From positions 1-13,893 of the forward strand of contig RFLL01000203.1 of assembly GCA_003693905.1 (NCBI GenBank): a stretch of 13,893 bases of DNA. The letters are read 5' to 3'. A program made the position numbers and the translations under genes. The notes beneath the pieces were generated by a model. That model saw only the letters and a program-made list of their open reading frames with translations, ran no database searches and had not been told where the DNA came from. Source of the DNA: Alphaproteobacteria bacterium (GTDB lineage: Bacteria; Pseudomonadota; Alphaproteobacteria; Kiloniellales; J153). This document shows positions 3,853 to 11,537 of the stretch, one piece after another (position 1 is the stretch's first letter; every line of letters begins with the position of its first letter).

Positions 3853-5232
3853 TCAGAAACCCACCTCGACGCCGAAGGTGACACGATCGGCACCATCGAA
3901 CTCACCGAACAGACCGTCCCGATCGCCATAGAAAATATCGAGCCCGAGCTTGAACGTGACATCGGAGCGGTACTCGTATTCGAGGTCGGCCTGAACGAGA
4001 CCGTCGCCACCATTCAGGCTGTGAATGGCAAGCAGGCTCGCGGTCAGCCGGTCGTTGAGAAACTCTTTTTCAATCAGCAACGTGGCCCGGCTTTCGAGAC
4101 GATCCCGCACGGTGCCGGGCCACCGGTCTGTCAGGAGCGACTGGAACGACTGGCCGCTGATCCGAAGATCGGCGTCAACCTGATAGTCGAGCCCCAGGAC
4201 GGAGCCGATCTCGCCGCTCTTGATGACACCGTCGTCATCGTCCGGATCACGGGCGAGAAAGTACCGATCGGTCGCATAGCCGGCCTCGCCGCGAAGCGTG
4301 ACATCCCCGAAGGCATTCGAGAAGGTTCCACCGATCAGATGCGTGCGCCTGTATTCCGGCTTGATGACGATACCGCCGCCGGGGATCCGGCGCTGAAACG
4401 GCACCGCCTGATCCTGGTAGTGGTAGAGATAGTCGAGCGAGAGATCCCAACCACCGATGAAGGCCGTGAGCCGGGTTCCGTAATCGTCGTCGCGGATGAA
4501 CCGGCCGGGACGGTGGGGTGCGTCGACGACGACGGGGCCGGCGCCGATGGTGGCAGGACCAGGCCTTGGCACGACGAGCGGCGACGAAAAGGCGAAGGTT
4601 GCACCCGGGTCGGGGACGTCGTCGTAGCTGTGATCCGGAATCCAGATGAGCTGAACCGTCCACTCACCCACCGGAATCTCGGCATTGGCGGTCCAAAGCG
4701 GAATCCGCCGATCTTCGAATTCGGGCAGGATGAATTCCCGGAAATCGAAAGGATTCACGATATCGAGGACGCGAAGCCCGTCGGCCTGCCCCCAGACGAT
4801 CTGTTGCTTGCCCAGCCGCACGAAGGACTCGCCGATATTCGCGTCTAAATAGAACTCGCGCAGTTCGAGATCGGCCGCATCGCCGATGAACCTCCGGCGC
4901 GTGAGGGCTGAGCGAAATGCGCTCTGCCGATCCGGTTGACCGGGTTCCAGATTATCGACGGGATCGAAACGGATCCGTCCAAGCGCCGTAAGGCGAAGAT
5001 CGCCGGCCAATCGCACCTGGACCTCGGGCTTGAAGGTCAGATCCCATTTCTGGAGCCCGCCATCGGCGGTCTCAATCGCCGTGCTGCTTTCGATCAGCCC
5101 GCGCAATTCCACGCGATCAAGCCAACCTTCCTGAGCGCGCACGTTCTCCATTCCGCCTGCCATGACGAAGAGAAGGGCAAATCCGAAGGTGACGCGGCGG
5201 ACGAGCGGGGAGTGTGCGTCATGTCCCTGCAA
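3853..5232 (-). CDS. DUF1302-type outer-membrane beta-barrel protein
   Basis: This 459-residue protein is predicted to be an outer-membrane component. A signal peptide covers about residues 1-33 (RRVTFGFALLFVMAGG core, cleavage near VRA|QE). The mature part alternates polar and hydrophobic residues in many short strands rich in D, R, Y and F. The final residue is Phe (VTFGVEVGF), the usual outer-membrane barrel ending. The segment VRLGKQQIVWGQADGLRVLDIVNP matches the conserved N-terminal core of DUF1302 proteins. These often sit beside RND/MMPL transporters and LolA-like or DUF1329 periplasmic proteins. The start is TTG, with GAGGG nine bases upstream inside the preceding gene; three bases separate it from that gene's stop, so translational coupling is likely. 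The later ATG codons lie within or after the signal core. The role as exit channel or lipid acceptor is inferred from partners. Confidence 0.82.
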   Translation of the reverse strand: MQGHDAHSPLVRRVTFGFALLFVMAGGMENVRAQEGWLDRVELRGLIESSTAIETADGGLQKWDLTFKPEVQVRLAGDLRLTALGRIRFDPVDNLEPGQPDRQSAFRSALTRRRFIGDAADLELREFYLDANIGESFVRLGKQQIVWGQADGLRVLDIVNPFDFREFILPEFEDRRIPLWTANAEIPVGEWTVQLIWIPDHSYDDVPDPGATFAFSSPLVVPRPGPATIGAGPVVVDAPHRPGRFIRDDDYGTRLTAFIGGWDLSLDYLYHYQDQAVPFQRRIPGGGIVIKPEYRRTHLIGGTFSNAFGDVTLRGEAGYATDRYFLARDPDDDDGVIKSGEIGSVLGLDYQVDADLRISGQSFQSLLTDRWPGTVRDRLESRATLLIEKEFLNDRLTASLLAIHSLNGGDGLVQADLEYEYRSDVTFKLGLDIFYGDRDGLFGEFDGADRVTFGVEVGF

Positions 5233-5235
5233 AGC

Positions 5236-8200
5236 CTAGAACCCTCGCCGCAACATGCTCTGTTTGAACATCCGGTCGGAAATTTTCGTCCGGTAGTCGA
5301 TGTTGGAGAAGGTAAAGAGCGTCGAATGCCCGGTCTTGTGGTTGACGGCGTGGATCCGCAGCGCCGTCCAGATGCCGTCGACCTGCGCAATCTCCGGCAG
5401 AGTGATCGTCTTCAGGTGGTTGCCGTTGGTGTCCCAGTAGTCGCTCTTGCGCGACATCCAGATGTCCGGATCGACGCGCCAGACGACGCGGCCGTAGCCG
5501 AGCTCGTTGGCAACCCTTTCGCTGACGGGCGTACCTTCGACGACGAATGTCGCGCGCCCTTCGACGTCCTCCCGGCCGAGGGCCCTGAAGCGATAGTCGG
5601 AAAGCTCGATCTTGTTCTCCTTCTTGATCTCCTCGTAGGTGAAATCGGTGCCGAGGAAGTAGTCCCCGCGATCCGAAGCCGAAATGCGGCGAACCTTGCG
5701 CAGCGCCGGAAGATAGAGCCACTGATCGTCGTCGACGCTAGGATCGGGATAGTCGTAGGTCAGAAAGGCGGTGCCTTTTATGTTGGTCGGGGAAAGGTAG
5801 AAGATCACGGTGCGCTTTTCTTTGCCGTAATACCGGCGCAGCGCTTTGGTGAGCCGTACCCGCGTCGTCCCGGAGCGATCGGTCAGCTCCATTCTGAGGT
5901 CGCGTGTGACCCACACGCCCTCGTTACGGGCGACGACCTTTTCCATGATCTCGCGCCCGCTCGGAAGCTCCTCTGCCCGGGCGGCAGGCGCGGCGAAGGC
6001 GAACGCCGCGGCGGCGATCAGCACAACGCCGAGTCGGCTTATCCTGGCGAGTCCCGTTGCCGTCATGGCGCTTTCCCCGGATCGGCGGGTCAGAAAAGCA
6101 GGTTGCGCGATCTTGACGAGCGCCGGGATCACGGTCATGGCAGCGAGAAAGGCGGTCGAGGTCGCAATCGCGACGAGCGAGCCGAACTTGATGAGCGGCG
6201 GCACGCCACTGGCCGTCAGAACGGCAAAACCGAGGGCGACGGCAATGAAATTGAACAGAAGCGCGCGCCCCGTGTTCGGGAACAGCATCAGAAGCGCTTC
6301 GTCATTGAAGCCGTGCCGTCCAACGAGCTCCTTCAACCGGTCGAGCGCGTGGATGGAAAAGTCGACACCGAGACCAATGGCGATGGCGGCGAACATCGAG
6401 GTACCGACACCGAGCCAGATGTCGCCGAACCCCATTACGGCATAGATGATGAGAACCGCCATGGCGATGGGAAGCAGACAGATGACGCCGGCGACGATAG
6501 AGCGAAAGACGAGCGCGGCCATCAGTCCGACGGCGATCAGAGACAAGATCACACTGCGCGCGTGATTGATCGCGATGTTGCGGATCCAGTGGTAGTCGAC
6601 ATTCACGCGGCCGGTGACGGTGCCGGTGATGGCCGGCGTGTTGAATTCTTCAGCAAGATATGTCTCGAGCGCCGGAACGATGACCTTGTTGTTGGTGTAC
6701 TGGCCGGTATCGACATTTGCCCGCACCAGAGCGCGCTGATAGGCATAGTCGACTTCTTCCTCGAAATCGGTTGGATCGCTCGATGCGGAATAGAGCAGGA
6801 AAAGCTGCGAGACGAGTAGCGGGTCGTCCGGAATGCGATAGGCATCGGACCGGTTCTCGTTCACCGCGCGGTGCATCTGCTTGATGTAGTCGACGACCGA
6901 CGTTGTGCCCCCGACGTGGGGAAGGCCTTCGAGAAAGGTTTGCAAGTTTTCGATGCGGCGCAGATTCTCGGGCTTGTGAAGATCCTCGGGGTTCGGCGTC
7001 TCGACGACCACGTCGAGGTAATAGGTTCCGTCCATCGCCGCATTGATCGCCTTGTCGGCACGGTAGAGCGGTTCGGTTTTCTGGAAGTTCTCGATCTGCT
7101 GCTCCTCGACGACGACGCGCGTCAAGCCGATCCCCCCGACGGCGGCGATGAATGCGGCACCCATGAGCACGGCGCGGGGATGGGCGAGCACCTGGCGACC
7201 GAAGGCGATCATGAAACGGCTGGCGGGATCGCCGTCGCCGGCGTCTTTACGCGCCTTGCGAAAGGGACGGCTGAGGCGCTTCGGCCACAGCGTCATCGCG
7301 GCGGGCACGAACATCAACGTATAGATCCAGGCGATGGCCACCCCGATCGCCCCGAAAAGACCGAAGTAGCGCATCGGCGGCATGGAAGAGGCGATGGCAA
7401 GCGCAAGAAACCCGGCGATGGTCGTCAGCGTCGTCAGCGTGACCGGGCGCCACATGGCGGCCAGCGTCCGCACGACGATCTCGCGATTCGGGGTATCGGG
7501 CCGCCGACGCAGTTCCTCGTAATACTGGCTGAAAATATGGATCGAGTCGGCAACGGCGATCCCGATCAGGTTGACGATCAGCGCATTGGTGATGACGTAG
7601 AATCTGACGCCGAAAGCGGCCATCAGACCGATGCTGCCGATCACCGTTGCCGCAACCACCAGATTGGGCAGGACCATGCCGCGCAGACTGACGAAGGCGA
7701 TGCCGAGAACAAGTGTGATGACGAGGGCGGCGAGCGGATTGAGGCGCTTGGCATCACGGTCGATATAGGTGGCAAGATAGCCGGCGACCGCCCCCTCGCC
7801 GGCGACGTGGATTTCATCTCCCGTCCCCTTCGGCGCCTCTGCGGCGAGCGCGCGCATTCTGTCGTAGGTTTCCTGCGACCTGGTTTCGTCGACGAGCTCG
7901 GCAACGATGATGGTTGCCGTGTCATCACGGGCGACGAGGCTGCCCCGGTAAAGAGGAAAGTCATGGACGGCGGTGCGAATTTCGTCGGCGCGCGCCTGCG
8001 TGCCCAATGACGCCTTGAAGCCTTCCGAGGATTCGTCGAAGAACTTTTCAACCAGCATGCCGTCGTCCGTGCCGACGATGTTGCTTTTGGTGGCCAGACT
8101 CGTGACCCGTTCGGGGTCGACGTTATCGAGCTTCTTGACGCGTTCGGTCAGCCAGTCGACGAGGGCGAGACTTTCGGGGTTGAAGACGCCCTTTTCTCCC

Positions 8201-8439
8201 TTGTTGATCACGGCGATGATGATCGGGTCGCGCAGACCGAAGATGTCTTCCACCTTGTCGCGGTAGACGAGCGCGGGGTCCGCGGGGTCGATGAAGGCAT
8301 CGGCGCTCGTGTCCTTTACGAGGCGCGGAAGATTGACGCCCGCCGCCGTGATCAGCAGCAGACCGACGATCAGGATCGGCCAACGCAGGGCCGTCATTCG
8401 CCAGAAGACCTTTTGAGCACCGGTTTCAGGGAAGTTCAT
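5236..8439 (-). CDS. RND/MMPL-family transporter fused to a LolA-like outer-membrane lipoprotein-sorting domain
   Basis: Residues 1-785 form a complete RND transporter of the MMPL/HpnN type: TM1 at about 21-39, a periplasmic loop to about 235, TM2-6 to 383, TM7 at about 424-440, a second loop to about 625, then TM8-12 to about 772. The paired motifs GIAVADSIHIF (293-303) and GVDFSIHALDRLKEL (691-705) mark the TM4 and TM10 repeats. Residue 792 is a Met followed by a classical signal peptide (core VVLIAAAAFAFAAPAARA, end near 822). Residues 823-1067 match LolA-like proteins (PF17131 type: YLPALRKVRRI, WRVDPDIWMSRKSDYWD). The buried signal could act as TM13 and hold the domain in the periplasm. 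ATG at 8439 is preferred over ATG at 8454, because GAAGGTGA lies just upstream of it. An extra T near 6094-6097 would also explain the fusion. The system probably moves a hydrophobic substrate outward; the cargo is unknown. Confidence 0.87.
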   Translation of the reverse strand: MNFPETGAQKVFWRMTALRWPILIVGLLLITAAGVNLPRLVKDTSADAFIDPADPALVYRDKVEDIFGLRDPIIIAVINKGEKGVFNPESLALVDWLTERVKKLDNVDPERVTSLATKSNIVGTDDGMLVEKFFDESSEGFKASLGTQARADEIRTAVHDFPLYRGSLVARDDTATIIVAELVDETRSQETYDRMRALAAEAPKGTGDEIHVAGEGAVAGYLATYIDRDAKRLNPLAALVITLVLGIAFVSLRGMVLPNLVVAATVIGSIGLMAAFGVRFYVITNALIVNLIGIAVADSIHIFSQYYEELRRRPDTPNREIVVRTLAAMWRPVTLTTLTTIAGFLALAIASSMPPMRYFGLFGAIGVAIAWIYTLMFVPAAMTLWPKRLSRPFRKARKDAGDGDPASRFMIAFGRQVLAHPRAVLMGAAFIAAVGGIGLTRVVVEEQQIENFQKTEPLYRADKAINAAMDGTYYLDVVVETPNPEDLHKPENLRRIENLQTFLEGLPHVGGTTSVVDYIKQMHRAVNENRSDAYRIPDDPLLVSQLFLLYSASSDPTDFEEEVDYAYQRALVRANVDTGQYTNNKVIVPALETYLAEEFNTPAITGTVTGRVNVDYHWIRNIAINHARSVILSLIAVGLMAALVFRSIVAGVICLLPIAMAVLIIYAVMGFGDIWLGVGTSMFAAIAIGLGVDFSIHALDRLKELVGRHGFNDEALLMLFPNTGRALLFNFIAVALGFAVLTASGVPPLIKFGSLVAIATSTAFLAAMTVIPALVKIAQPAFLTRRSGESAMTATGLARISRLGVVLIAAAAFAFAAPAARAEELPSGREIMEKVVARNEGVWVTRDLRMELTDRSGTTRVRLTKALRRYYGKEKRTVIFYLSPTNIKGTAFLTYDYPDPSVDDDQWLYLPALRKVRRISASDRGDYFLGTDFTYEEIKKENKIELSDYRFRALGREDVEGRATFVVEGTPVSERVANELGYGRVVWRVDPDIWMSRKSDYWDTNGNHLKTITLPEIAQVDGIWTALRIHAVNHKTGHSTLFTFSNIDYRTKISDRMFKQSMLRRGF
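6064..6066 (-). other. Possible internal start codon of the LolA-like domain
   Basis: On the minus strand the ATG at 6066-6064 is preceded by GGGGA with seven bases between, and is followed at once by a full signal peptide. Ribosomes could start here to make a free 276-residue periplasmic LolA-like protein. The same site would be the ordinary start of a separate gene if the upstream RND frame ended at the out-of-frame TGA (minus strand, 6092-6090). Confidence 0.5.
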
Positions 8440-8474
8440 CAGGTTCACCTTCATGTGTCGCTGTGCGCCGTATC

Positions 8475-8511: not shown

Positions 8512-8940
8512 TCACACCGCCTCGATCAGGTCGCTCAGAAGGGCTCTGGTCTCGTGCCAGCGATCCTTGCCGAGCCGCTTGACGAGGCGGTTCTGCGTTG
8601 CCCGCCACAGCGGAAGCGCCCGTTCGAGCTTGGCCTCGCCCTTTTTCGTCAGGCGCAGAGACCGCGCCCGGCGATACCCCTCCGGCCCGACGGCGACGAG
8701 CCCGTCTTTTTCGAGGCGCCGCAGATTGCGGGTCAGCGTCGTGCGCTCCAATGCCAGGATCTCCGCAAGTTGTGAGATCGATTCCGGCGCCCCCCGCCGG
8801 ATCGCGACCAGAAGCGTGAATTGGGTCACCTTGAGTCCCAGGGGACGCAAGGCTTCGTCATAAGCCCGCGTCACCTTTCGCGCCGCCATTCGCGTACGCA
8901 GTGCCGCGCACTCCCGCTCGACATCCTTCATGGCTACCAT
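8512..8940 (-). CDS. MarR-family transcriptional regulator
   Basis: This 142-residue protein has the normal length and build of a dimeric MarR repressor. Helices of the dimer face lie at both ends (about 5-30 and 105-142). The winged helix-turn-helix is at about 53-100: SISQLAEILALERTTLTRNLRRLEKDGLV carries the recognition helix, GPEGYRRARSLRLTKKGEAKL the wing. ATG at 8940 has AGGA ten bases upstream; a second ATG at 8931 is possible. Its promoter region holds a TGTA-TT-TACA site, and a near-identical site precedes the RND gene downstream on the same strand. It therefore probably represses itself and the RND/DUF1302/MFS operon until a ligand, perhaps a substrate of those pumps, releases it. 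One cysteine (Cys11) is present; redox control is not indicated. Confidence 0.9.
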   Translation of the reverse strand: MVAMKDVERECAALRTRMAARKVTRAYDEALRPLGLKVTQFTLLVAIRRGAPESISQLAEILALERTTLTRNLRRLEKDGLVAVGPEGYRRARSLRLTKKGEAKLERALPLWRATQNRLVKRLGKDRWHETRALLSDLIEAV

Positions 8941-9952: not shown

Positions 9953-10426
9953 TCAGAACAGCCTGCGCAGCCAGTCCATGGCACCGGCCTTCGCATTCAG
10001 AAGCGACACGATATCGTCATGGCCGGCAGCCGCCGCAAGAGTTTGCGCCTGCTCGCGCCGCCCGTTTCTCAAATGGGGATCGACACCGGCGGCGAGCAGC
10101 AGCGGCGTGTTGCCCAGCCGGCTGCGCGCATCGATGTCGGCGCCCGCGGCGACAAGGGCCGCGAGGACTTCGTCGTGTCCGCGCCGTGCCGCCTCCATCA
10201 GGGCCGAATACCCGTCGGCATCGGTAGCGTGCGGACGGGCCCCGTGGCGAAGCAGCTCGACCACCGTGCGTCGCCGCCCTTCGGCCGCCGTGTGCCACAG
10301 GACGGTGCGTCCGTCGGCATCGCGGGCGCCGAGACGGCCGCCGTGGGCCGAATGCGACCGCACCTGATTGTAATCCTGCCGCCAGCGCGCGATGACGGCG
10401 CGCACTTCCGCGAGGCTCGTGAACAC
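9953..10426 (-). CDS. Ankyrin-repeat protein fused in frame to the tail of an IS3-family transposase
   Basis: Of 157 residues, about 1-28 (FTSLAEVRAVIARWRQDYNQVRSHSA) are the C-terminal part of an IS3-family OrfB. From about residue 30 the protein is ankyrin: repeat 1 DADGRTVLWHTAAEGRRRTVVELLRHG, repeat 2 DADGYSALMEAARRGHDEVLAALVAAG, a shortened repeat 3 (SRLGNTPLLLAAGVDPHLR, 19 rather than 33 residues), and a final repeat ending HDDIVSLLNAKAG before the tail MDWLRRLF. Ankyrin repeats mediate protein-protein contact. The original 5' end is missing, and the frame borrows transposase codons. The listed GTG start (10426) has GAGGAA directly against it and no proper spacing, so expression is doubtful. 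The frame stays open upstream to a TAA at 10498-10496. It is probably a gene fragment left by IS-linked rearrangement. Confidence 0.7.
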   Translation of the reverse strand: MFTSLAEVRAVIARWRQDYNQVRSHSAHGGRLGARDADGRTVLWHTAAEGRRRTVVELLRHGARPHATDADGYSALMEAARRGHDEVLAALVAAGADIDARSRLGNTPLLLAAGVDPHLRNGRREQAQTLAAAAGHDDIVSLLNAKAGAMDWLRRLF

Positions 10427-10680
10427 TTCCTCGTTGAGGCATTCGTCCCGGAAACGGCCGTTGAAGCTCTCGACAAAGGCGTATCTCGCGTCGGCTTACC
10501 GGAGGCGACGGAGTGCCAGTCGACACCCGTGCGGTTGGTCCATTCGAGCACCGCCCGCGAGGTCAGTTCGGTGCCGTTGTCCGAGACGATCATCAAGGGC
10601 CGGCCGCGCCGGACGCTCAGCCCTTCCTCGCGAGAGAACCGGCAAAGTTTCTTGTGGTTCATGGCCATTCCCTTCCGCAC
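10345..10680 (-). mobile_element. IS3-family insertion sequence remnant (transposase OrfB, decayed)
   Basis: Two minus-strand frames together spell parts of an IS3-family OrfB of IS407-like style. One frame gives MNHKKLCRFSREEGLSVRR and then directly GRPLMIVSDNGTELTSRAVL and VDWHSVASGKPT. The other continues as YAFVESFNGRFRDECLNEEVFTSLAEVR. Most of the DDE core between SVRR and GRPL, including the first catalytic Asp, is missing; the second Asp (SDNG) remains, and the Glu (FVESFNG) is out of frame. A one-base shift near 10480-10500 separates the frames. OrfA, the OrfB end, and both terminal inverted repeats were not found. The element cannot encode an active transposase. Boundaries are approximate. 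Confidence 0.85.
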
Positions 10681-10681
10681 T

Positions 10682-10699
10682 AACAGAATAAACAGAATA
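10682..10699. repeat. Tandem 9-bp duplication beside the IS remnant
   Basis: AACAGAATA occurs twice head to tail at 10682-10690 and 10691-10699, next to the upstream edge of recognisable IS3 sequence. It could be a slippage or rearrangement scar. The two copies do not flank an element, so it is not a target-site duplication as such. Confidence 0.5.
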
Positions 10700-11462
10700 C
10701 CGTGCCGCCGGAAACCGAACCGACGACGCATGACGGTCGCGAGCGGTTCTTTCCGTTCATCCGGGACTGATTGAGGATCCGCAGGAGGTCCGGGCCGGCT
10801 TTACCCGTAACACCGCCACCCCGGGCGCGTCGGTCTGCGCGTGCGCTATGTCAAGCTGTTCAGGGTCGACAAGGACCGCGTCCTCGGCTTCGTGGCCGAT
10901 GCCGATCAAGAATACTGGTCGGGCCTGACGTTTTTCTCGGGTCGCGCTCAGAGTTTGGATGGGATGAATTGCGAAAAGGATTGCGTATTTTTCGAGTGGG
11001 AGCGGCATATGATCGCCCGCCGCGCGACCCAACCCCAGTTCCTCCGGCTATTGGGGCGGCGGCCCAGCCAGGGGCCTGTTACGTTAAAAATAGAAGTTCC
11101 GTTCCATACGCGCCCGTGCAACCTTGTGGTGGTCGGATTCTGGCTTCGGATGCTTCTTTCCCGACCTTGGCAACGTCCGAGTTAGGAAGATCACCCCATC
11201 ACGGACTTCCTCTGAAAGGTCCTGAAAACGGCTGTTTTCTATGGGTTTCAGGATGATTTACCCGCCCCGCAAGCTCGGACGTTGAACGTCCCAGTTCCGG
11301 CCTTGGAAGTCGGACGCTCCACCCCCCTCCGCGCACCCGTGTTTTTCCTGTTTATCAGGTGCTTAGGCGTGAATATTAGAGATCCCTTACTGCACGGTTT
11401 TCTGTCGTCTCACAATGCCGTCACAGGAAGAGAATCGGGAGAAACCGGAGCGGGTGGGAAAC
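10700..11462. other. Gene-poor stretch between IS remnant and tRNA-Gly
   Basis: No confident gene lies here. A plus-strand frame at 10841-11185 (GTG start, 114 residues) has protein-like composition in its first half (RYVKLFRVDKDRVLGFVADADQEYW). It lacks a good Shine-Dalgarno and turns arginine- and tryptophan-rich after about residue 55; I do not recognise it. A minus-strand frame at 10757-11032 covers the same bases. One of these may be a fragment of a lost gene. From about 11080 the base composition is lower in GC, with many short stops and no coding signal. A small inverted repeat (CCTG/CAGG) lies near 11347-11360. Confidence 0.4.
10841..11185 (+). CDS. Doubtful ORF, unrecognised, possibly a gene fragment
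   Basis: The frame gives 114 residues from a GTG. Codons for about the first 25 residues are typical of the neighbouring genes (GTC, AAG, CTG, TTC, GAC, CGC). No domain was recognised and no ribosome binding site is convincing. The frame has a stop upstream at 10807-10809. The second half looks non-coding. It is listed only because it is the best open frame in this stretch. Confidence 0.2.
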   Translation: MRYVKLFRVDKDRVLGFVADADQEYWSGLTFFSGRAQSLDGMNCEKDCVFFEWERHMIARRATQPQFLRLLGRRPSQGPVTLKIEVPFHTRPCNLVVVGFWLRMLLSRPWQRPS

Positions 11463-11537
11463 TGGAGCGGGTGAAGGGAATCGAACCCTCGACACGTAGC
11501 TTGGGAAGCTACTGCTCTACCACTGAGCTACACCCGC
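11463..11537 (-). tRNA. tRNA-Gly(CCC)
   Basis: Read on the minus strand it folds as a full cloverleaf: acceptor GCGGGTG/CACCCGC, D-stem GCTC/GAGC with loop AGTGGTA, anticodon stem GTAGC/GCTAC with loop TTCCCAA, 5-base variable region, T-stem GAGGG/CCCTT with loop TTCGATT. The anticodon CCC reads GGG glycine codons, and the discriminator is U as in tRNA-Gly. CCA is encoded (11465-11463). A promoter-like TTGAAT-17-TATAAG lies upstream at 11731-11703. Sequence on its 3' side is gene-poor and rearranged, as is common where elements have integrated at tRNA 3' ends. Confidence 0.97.

Follow-up and report, generated by a model that had tools for sequence, protein, structure and literature searches.

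Systems comparable with the locus considered here are described, in the parts of the literature cited below, for several bacteria. In Castellaniella defragrans, AmeABCD comprises an RND protein of the HAE3 family (AmeD), a DUF1302 outer-membrane protein (AmeA) and a DUF1329 protein of the LolA superfamily (AmeB), and its deletion lowers monoterpene tolerance (PMC6394551). In Pseudomonas putida, a DUF1302 barrel, a DUF1329 protein, a periplasmic protein and a transporter (PP_0765, PP_0766, PP_2018 and PP_2019) are all needed for the use of Tween 20 and were proposed to act as a substrate transport system (PMC10866462). Growth of Thalassolituus oleivorans MIL-1 on the n-C28 alkane is accompanied by 42-fold upregulation of TOL_3187 and exclusive expression of TOL_3188 (PMC6304351). 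LolA3, a paralog of LolA, pairs with LolB very weakly or not at all and is made with a signal peptide, stated to be of the signal peptidase I type for the Flavobacterium protein (PMC13103446, PMC11885536). The present locus lies in a 13,893-nt stretch of an alphaproteobacterial genome of the order Kiloniellales (hereafter the window; GenBank assembly GCA_003693905.1, contig RFLL01000203.1), where a single minus-strand gene encodes an RND transporter, a signal peptide in mid-chain and a LolA-like domain.

We consider it moderately probable, from the pattern of sequence conservation, that this chain is a polyprotein, in which signal peptidase I would cut after Ala827 and free a LolA-like shuttle, moving a hydrophobic substrate between the pump and the product of the adjoining DUF1302 gene. 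The initial annotation of this DNA had offered two other options, namely a 13th transmembrane (TM) helix with a tethered shuttle, or internal initiation giving a fused and a free form; cleavage of the fused precursor, absent from it, fits better than either. Residue numbers count from the ATG at 8454, and subtraction of 5 gives the numbering of the initial annotation, in which Met792 is Met797, and residue 823 is Glu828 (± one), of the 1072-residue chain.

A genuine fusion of an RND transporter and a LolA-like domain

The minus strand is open from the ATG at 8454 to the stop at 5236, for 1072 codons, with no stop between the domains. Met6 (position 8439) is preferred as the start because it is nearly invariant (at least 90%) in an alignment of 52 fused proteins including that of the window, and because its Shine–Dalgarno pairing is the stronger (−6.9 against −1.7 kcal/mol for the ATG at 8454); the coding sequence most likely runs from 8439 to 5236. 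The Pfam profiles MMPL (E 6e-29; 101.5 bits, cut-off 20.5) and LolA_like PF17131 (residues 879–1070; E 3e-52; 177.4 bits, cut-off 30; profile positions 2–184 of 184) match this one chain, a weaker DUF1329 match overlapping the PF17131 region, which bears out the initial description of an RND protein and a LolA-like domain in a single frame. The RND part is termed HAE3-like, without membership of the HAE3 subfamily, because its 221.2 bits against TIGR00921 stay under the cut-off of 351.9. Profiles of the hopanoid transporter HpnN were missed as well (TIGR03480, 91.1 against a cut-off of 751.85; NF052374, 40.1 against 1100). Among the 52 aligned sequences Asp303 is nearly invariant and Asp698 invariant, at positions in TM4 and TM10 that we take to be those of the proton-relay acids of RND proteins.

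An AlphaFold2 model built from 52 sequences (mean pLDDT 84.9, pTM 0.75) has a well-folded RND part and well-folded residues 830–1072. By our own assignment, its helices are consistent with 12 TM helices and two large periplasmic loops in the RND part, the helix count given initially. By fold (Foldseek), the RND part resembles MmpL4/5/3, NPC1 and HpnN, and the C-terminal part resembles LolA3 of Porphyromonas gingivalis (PDB 9tp6, TM-score 0.90), which is also the closest solved match of this domain by sequence (E 4e-38); none of the 50 Foldseek matches listed is an RND structure titled with a LolA-like domain. The name LolA is used here for the family only and should not be taken to imply a role in the Lol lipoprotein pathway, LolA3 binding LolB very weakly at most (PMC13103446).

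The fusion is confirmed as genuine and beyond chance. A sequencing or assembly error that ran two genes together could be imagined, since the assembly is a 59.6% complete draft, with a single copy of the fused gene, and split homologs exist. Against this, a protein search with residues 700–1072 gave 751 matches among 8000 scored candidates, and of the best 120 listed 118 (one being the window's protein) are 1000–1150 residues long and carry MMPL and PF17131 in their precomputed domains; a second search, with a Marinomonas relative, gave 113 chains of that length with both domains among the best 120 of 1386 matches. These come from many assemblies, named isolates of Pelagibius, Denitrobaculum and Marinomonas having the fusion too, and a search of 58 related genomes found it whole and unbroken in five further genomes of the window's order. 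Because independent relatives are fused over their full length, an artefact is rejected, with next to no probability left to it, even though the window's own assembly is incomplete. Nor are close relatives all split, as the initial annotation had allowed: the five genomes of the same order and most listed homologs are fused. The fusion is common in its family, already in print for TOL_3187 (PMC6304351), and less unusual than the initial annotation implied. No close copy was found in any of the eight other genomes of the window's family (best match ∼25% identity). Across the class, matches at E 1e-60 or better occur in 13 of 385 genomes, one of them the window's; the distribution is therefore patchy. 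A scan of genome contigs returned 55 loci, mostly titled Alpha- or Gammaproteobacteria or genera thereof.

Conservation at the joint and what it says about cleavage

The C-termini of RND proteins are cytoplasmic, and a signal peptide with Nin–Cout orientation puts the part that follows it in the periplasm. The argument made initially from this topology, that a signal peptide is needed to export the domain, is judged right, as is the recognition of a buried signal peptide. The joint reads ...RRSGESAM-TATGLARISRLGVVLIAAAAFAFAAPAARA/EELPSG... (slash, predicted cut), where a positive end is followed by a hydrophobic core and then an AxA site. Its conservation was assessed in two sets: set 1, with 47 fused proteins below 70% identity, the window's included, drawn from 153 fused sequences (117 proteins and 36 loci); and set 2, a replicate of 24 fused proteins less than 70% identical to set 1 and to each other.

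In set 1, the column at position −1 (q827) is Ala in 41/47 and Ala, Gly or Ser in 45/47, and that at −3 (q825) is Ala, Val, Ser or Thr in 38/47 (Ala in 22). Elsewhere between q790 and q826, no column with at least 60% of its rows filled has a commonest residue in more than 20/47. Conservation within the joint thus peaks at −3 and −1, the two positions by which a signal peptidase I site is defined, while the linker and the hydrophobic core drift. A gap-free count at fixed distance upstream of the domain start, meant to exclude gap stacking, gave Ala at −1 in 31/47, against 17/47 for the best of the offsets 10–47; by eye, all but one of the 16 exceptions show a similar triplet shifted by a few residues. 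The motif [ASTV]xA occurs 5–14 residues before q836 in 37/47 (mean 22.9 and maximum 33 in 5000 shuffles) and 5–16 residues before it in 39/47 (shuffled mean 27.0, maximum 39). The replicate agrees, less sharply: Ala at −1 in 15/24, Ala, Thr, Ser or Val at −3 in 21/24, and the motif in 19/24 at 5–14 residues (mean 9.1, maximum 18, again in 5000 shuffles) as at 5–16 (mean 11.5, maximum 19); at q811, Ala is found in 13/24. Small residues at (−3,−1) thus stand behind a positive end and a hydrophobic core, the pattern of a signal peptidase I site, with less contrast in set 2. No Cys lies near the site, and there is therefore no lipobox. In split homologs, ordinary signal peptides direct the export of this domain, which also speaks for cleavage.

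A number of results pull the other way. Ala at the fixed offset is found in only 80 of the 153 fused rows, near-duplicates included, and in set 2 two columns of the RND tail, q789 (Thr) and q790 (Gly), equal position −1 at 15/24. The core is more hydrophobic than that of the split signal peptides (1.92 against 1.65) and could serve as an anchor. The (−3,−1) conservation may in part be inherited from a recent fusion, though the joint has otherwise drifted. Whole-site scores were ambiguous. A prokaryotic signal-peptide matrix gives the true signal peptides of 50 split homologs a median of 8.6 (at least 5 in 48/50). The median of the joint was 9.5 in set 1, where the exits of six other TM helices had 4.2–5.8, and 7.1 in set 2, where they had 3.6–7.2; these control segments were rough, those of TM3 and TM5 falling partly on the inward-going neighbour helix. 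With the helices of the model, the joint still beats all six in set 1 (area under the curve 0.84, p 7e-14; TM3 only slightly, 8.0 against 9.5, p 0.01), but in set 2 TM3, TM5 and TM9 (8.8, 7.5 and 7.8) equal or exceed its 7.1 (area under the curve 0.66, p 0.007). The matrix marks the joint as an acceptable site, not as a special one. Plain AxA counts, weak because the tails are rich in alanine, gave 42/47 at the joint (29 when shuffled) and likewise 42/47 in the TM3 segment, and a matrix trained on the split proteins gave 3.6 at the joint, 3.3 at the TM1 exit and 10.6 for the split proteins, its own training set; as tests of cleavage both were rejected, since they do not set the joint apart from TM3 or TM1.

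FbcH, the cytochrome b/c1 polyprotein of Bradyrhizobium (not returned by our literature search), carries an internal signal peptide after a multi-TM protein and is cut there by signal peptidase. As a control, 20 stretches were examined and yielded five cytochrome b/c1 fusions, of which three show a clear AxA by eye. Four other stretches, on inspection, proved to be chance long frames beside a separate cytochrome b, and eleven stayed unassigned; the sample is too small to carry weight. In one of the five fusions, the heme motif CxxCH is altered to CAAGR. Matrix scores, AxA counts, the split-trained matrix and the FbcH control make up what did not DISCRIMINATE; the case for cleavage rests on column conservation and the shuffle test. 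Because the joint's advantage in the matrix shrank in set 1 and all but disappeared in set 2 with the model helices, our confidence was lowered a little, from quite probable to moderately probable for cleavage, and from moderately probable to little better than even for the polyprotein reading with switching gene arrangements discussed below.

The segment might instead stay uncut as TM13 and hold the LolA-like domain beside the periplasmic domains of the RND part as a docking or loading module, the tether proposed initially, which is now judged the less likely reading. Its hydrophobicity is near that of the real TM helices (1.96–2.33), other outward-going helices in set 2 reach equally high matrix scores, and the frame is continuous in many lineages. 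RND-superfamily lipid transporters of the NPC1 type are known to carry extra lumenal domains, and NPC1 is among the fold matches. A tether would not predict conservation concentrated at −3 and −1 (less sharply so in set 2), and some of the split relatives, which export the domain as a free protein, lie inside fused clades. Structure prediction on the full chain, a check proposed initially, returned the 12 TM helices and the LolA fold; residues 792–829 are not modelled as a helix and have pLDDT below 50. Only ∼8 residues (5–12) link the site to the LolA-like domain, which is taken as too short for the domain to reach the outer membrane. Because of this linker, an uncut domain would be kept at the inner membrane, where it could load or unload but not travel, and transfer to the outer membrane would call for a further carrier.

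Internal initiation at Met797, which in the window's lineage at least would add a free LolA-like protein to the fused form, is improbable. The ATG at 6066 has a Shine–Dalgarno pairing of −5.7 kcal/mol, the Met is retained in two close relatives, and six of the 35 other fused loci have a start codon with a pairing of −4 or better before the core. Yet 13% of in-frame positions pair as well, and relatives at 75% and 69% identity lack the Met. Across set 1 this column is Met in 4/47, with any Met before the core in 18/47, and only 10 of the 35 other fused loci have an ATG past the RND end and ahead of the core. The joint is thus conserved at (−3,−1) and not at the Met, and these counts reject internal initiation as a general mechanism of the family, although it may occur in the window.

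Split relatives and the conserved cassette

Among 101 loci, in which some genes are represented twice, 36 are fused (one being the window), 60 split and five incomplete; both arrangements thus exist in one family. In split pairs, the LolA-like gene mostly starts within the RND tail or close to it and encodes a signal peptide of its own, and a few pairs are 0.3–2.5 kb apart. Five loci from Sedimenticola and related bacteria have 0.8–2.5 kb between the two genes, with one or two extra open reading frames of 280–335 aa, some SDR-like by eye. In six distant split pairs both genes are in the same frame with a single stop between them, a situation with a chance of one in three.

A FastTree of 97 rows (65 fused, 32 split) requires at least seven changes between the two states, five of them forced by starred branches, and a quick IQ-TREE of 58 hand-picked rows (37 fused, 21 split) four, all forced by starred branches. 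Two split clades, of five and four loci, are nested among fused ones, and a single clade of all fused proteins is rejected (p-AU 8.8e-5; 38 chosen rows, 23 fused and 15 split, the group having been defined after inspection of the first trees). The locus has therefore been re-split after fusing, or has fused more than once; gain and loss of the fusion are indistinguishable from the tree. We lean, by a little, towards a widespread polyprotein family in which the 13th segment is a mid-chain signal peptide and the same locus has switched between one cleaved gene and two overlapping genes, as either arrangement would yield the same pair of products.

The fused gene belongs to a conserved cassette with a MarR regulator and a DUF1302 protein (Table 1). 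The DUF1302 match in the window has 59.5 bits against a cut-off of 23.2, and its product is presumed, from Pfam and the literature, to be an outer-membrane barrel. In each of the 67 loci that extend 1200 nt or more beyond the LolA-like part, an open reading frame of at least 380 aa lies within 120 nt of that part, and DUF1302 adjoins in 57 of the 63 scanned (55 of 61, i.e. the window and 60 others, then two of two); the window's own entry among the loci and four copies or near-copies of others were left out. A homolog of the window's MarR protein occurs within 3 kb upstream in 23/29 fused, 14/23 near split and 0/28 distant split loci, counted where there was room and with duplicates removed, near and distant being our own grouping.

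Table 1. Features of the cassette in the window; residues are numbered from the ATG at 8454
Feature	Position	Strand	Remarks
DUF1302 protein (PF06980)	3853..5232	-	459 aa, beginning 3 nt past the fused gene; signal peptide judged by eye; presumed barrel of the outer membrane
Fused gene: RND transporter, internal signal peptide, LolA-like domain	5236..8439	-	1067 aa from Met6; 1072 aa from the ATG at 8454
LolA-like domain (PF17131, LolA3-type)	5239..5973	-	Residues 828-1072; predicted free periplasmic protein after cleavage
Ala825-Arg-Ala827	5974..5982	-	Predicted cleavage site of signal peptidase I, after Ala827; from conservation and shuffles, matrix scores giving weak support
Hydrophobic core of the internal signal peptide	5983..6033	-	Residues 808-824
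Internal ATG (Met797)	6064..6066	-	Shine-Dalgarno-like GGGGAAA upstream; unconserved in the family
RND part (MMPL/HAE3-like)	6082..8439	-	Residues 6-791; 12 TM helices; Asp303 (TM4) and Asp698 (TM10) conserved
MarR-family regulator	8512..8940	-	Directly upstream; conserved in the cassette

Of ten upstream proteins scanned, two are alpha/beta hydrolases and the others fall into assorted families, each seen once, or into none; they point to no common substrate. Beside the cassette, upstream of the RND gene, an alpha/beta hydrolase is seen in two loci, and a GST-like protein and a diguanylate cyclase in one each. Elsewhere in the window, at 9953–10426 and 10198–10731 (minus strand), the end of an insertion-sequence transposase (rve_3) continues in frame into ankyrin repeats, while the preceding transposase part (weak rve match) is in another frame; this region resembles a degraded insertion element fused to an ankyrin gene. 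A tRNA-Gly (anticodon CCC) is found by ARAGORN and Rfam at 11463–11537 (minus strand).

Possible mechanism and comparison with known systems

In the cleaved polyprotein, the RND part would insert with 12 TM helices and a cytoplasmic C-terminal end, after which the internal signal peptide would insert in the opposite direction and the Sec machinery would export the LolA-like domain. A cut after Ala827 by signal peptidase I (LepB) would yield a soluble LolA3-type protein, 1:1 with the pump. On the periplasmic side of the presumably proton-driven RND protein, this free protein may accept or deliver a hydrophobic molecule, and it may exchange that molecule with the DUF1302 outer-membrane protein. 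The MarR protein probably turns the cassette on when the substrate is present. By analogy, uptake is suggested by the Tween 20 system of P. putida (PMC10866462) and by the induction of TOL_3187/3188 on n-C28 (PMC6304351), and efflux by AmeABCD (PMC6394551).

Cleavage predicts a free protein of ∼27 kDa beginning at Glu828. If the chain is cut, at least 231 database entries with the fusion misdescribe the mature proteins, the shuttle being free, and tethered-carrier models of transport would be wrong. The family would then offer a clear bacterial case of a polyprotein processed by the housekeeping signal peptidase, and DUF1302 proteins and the uncharacterised LolA3-type proteins would be tied to one RND-driven system for hydrophobic compounds, of relevance to alkane and terpene degraders.

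In our searches of open-licence PMC texts, neither cleavage at the RND/LolA joint nor a cleaved-polyprotein reading nor switching between fused and split genes was found, and PMC6304351 was the sole paper returned that brings a LolA-like domain and MMPL together. In one of these searches the papers listed concern viruses or eukaryotes, save for one streptococcal signal-peptidase-like protein. As described there, TOL_3187/3188 has the same fused architecture with an adjoining porin, and appears homologous by this description. Its text proposes export of the porin by TOL_3187 and gives the porin ‘no conserved domains’; the passages available deal neither with the joint nor with cleavage or a split form (PMC6304351). 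AmeABCD shares with the window an RND protein, a LolA-fold protein and a DUF1302 gene beside the RND gene, and differs, in the part of the text available, in its separate genes without fusion, in having DUF1329 in place of PF17131, and in an extra COG4447 protein, AmeC (PMC6394551). No Pfam match of the AmeC type was found in the 11 proteins of the window that were scanned, a search not extended to the rest of the genome. The P. putida system likewise has separate genes, in two loci by their numbers, and the complexes in the passages at hand are AlphaFold predictions (PMC10866462). LolA3 (9tp6) is a stand-alone protein, RND and MMPL being unmentioned in both main texts (PMC13103446, PMC11885536).

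MmpL3/4/5, HpnN and NPC1 have their fold in common with the RND part, though the window's protein misses the cut-offs of the HpnN profiles. With FbcH, the processing logic would be the same, but FbcH is respiratory, its cytochrome c1 keeps a C-terminal anchor, and its sequence is unrelated. The fused architecture with an adjacent porin and the separate-gene relatives are already known; the pattern of conservation at (−3,−1) as against the Met is new here.

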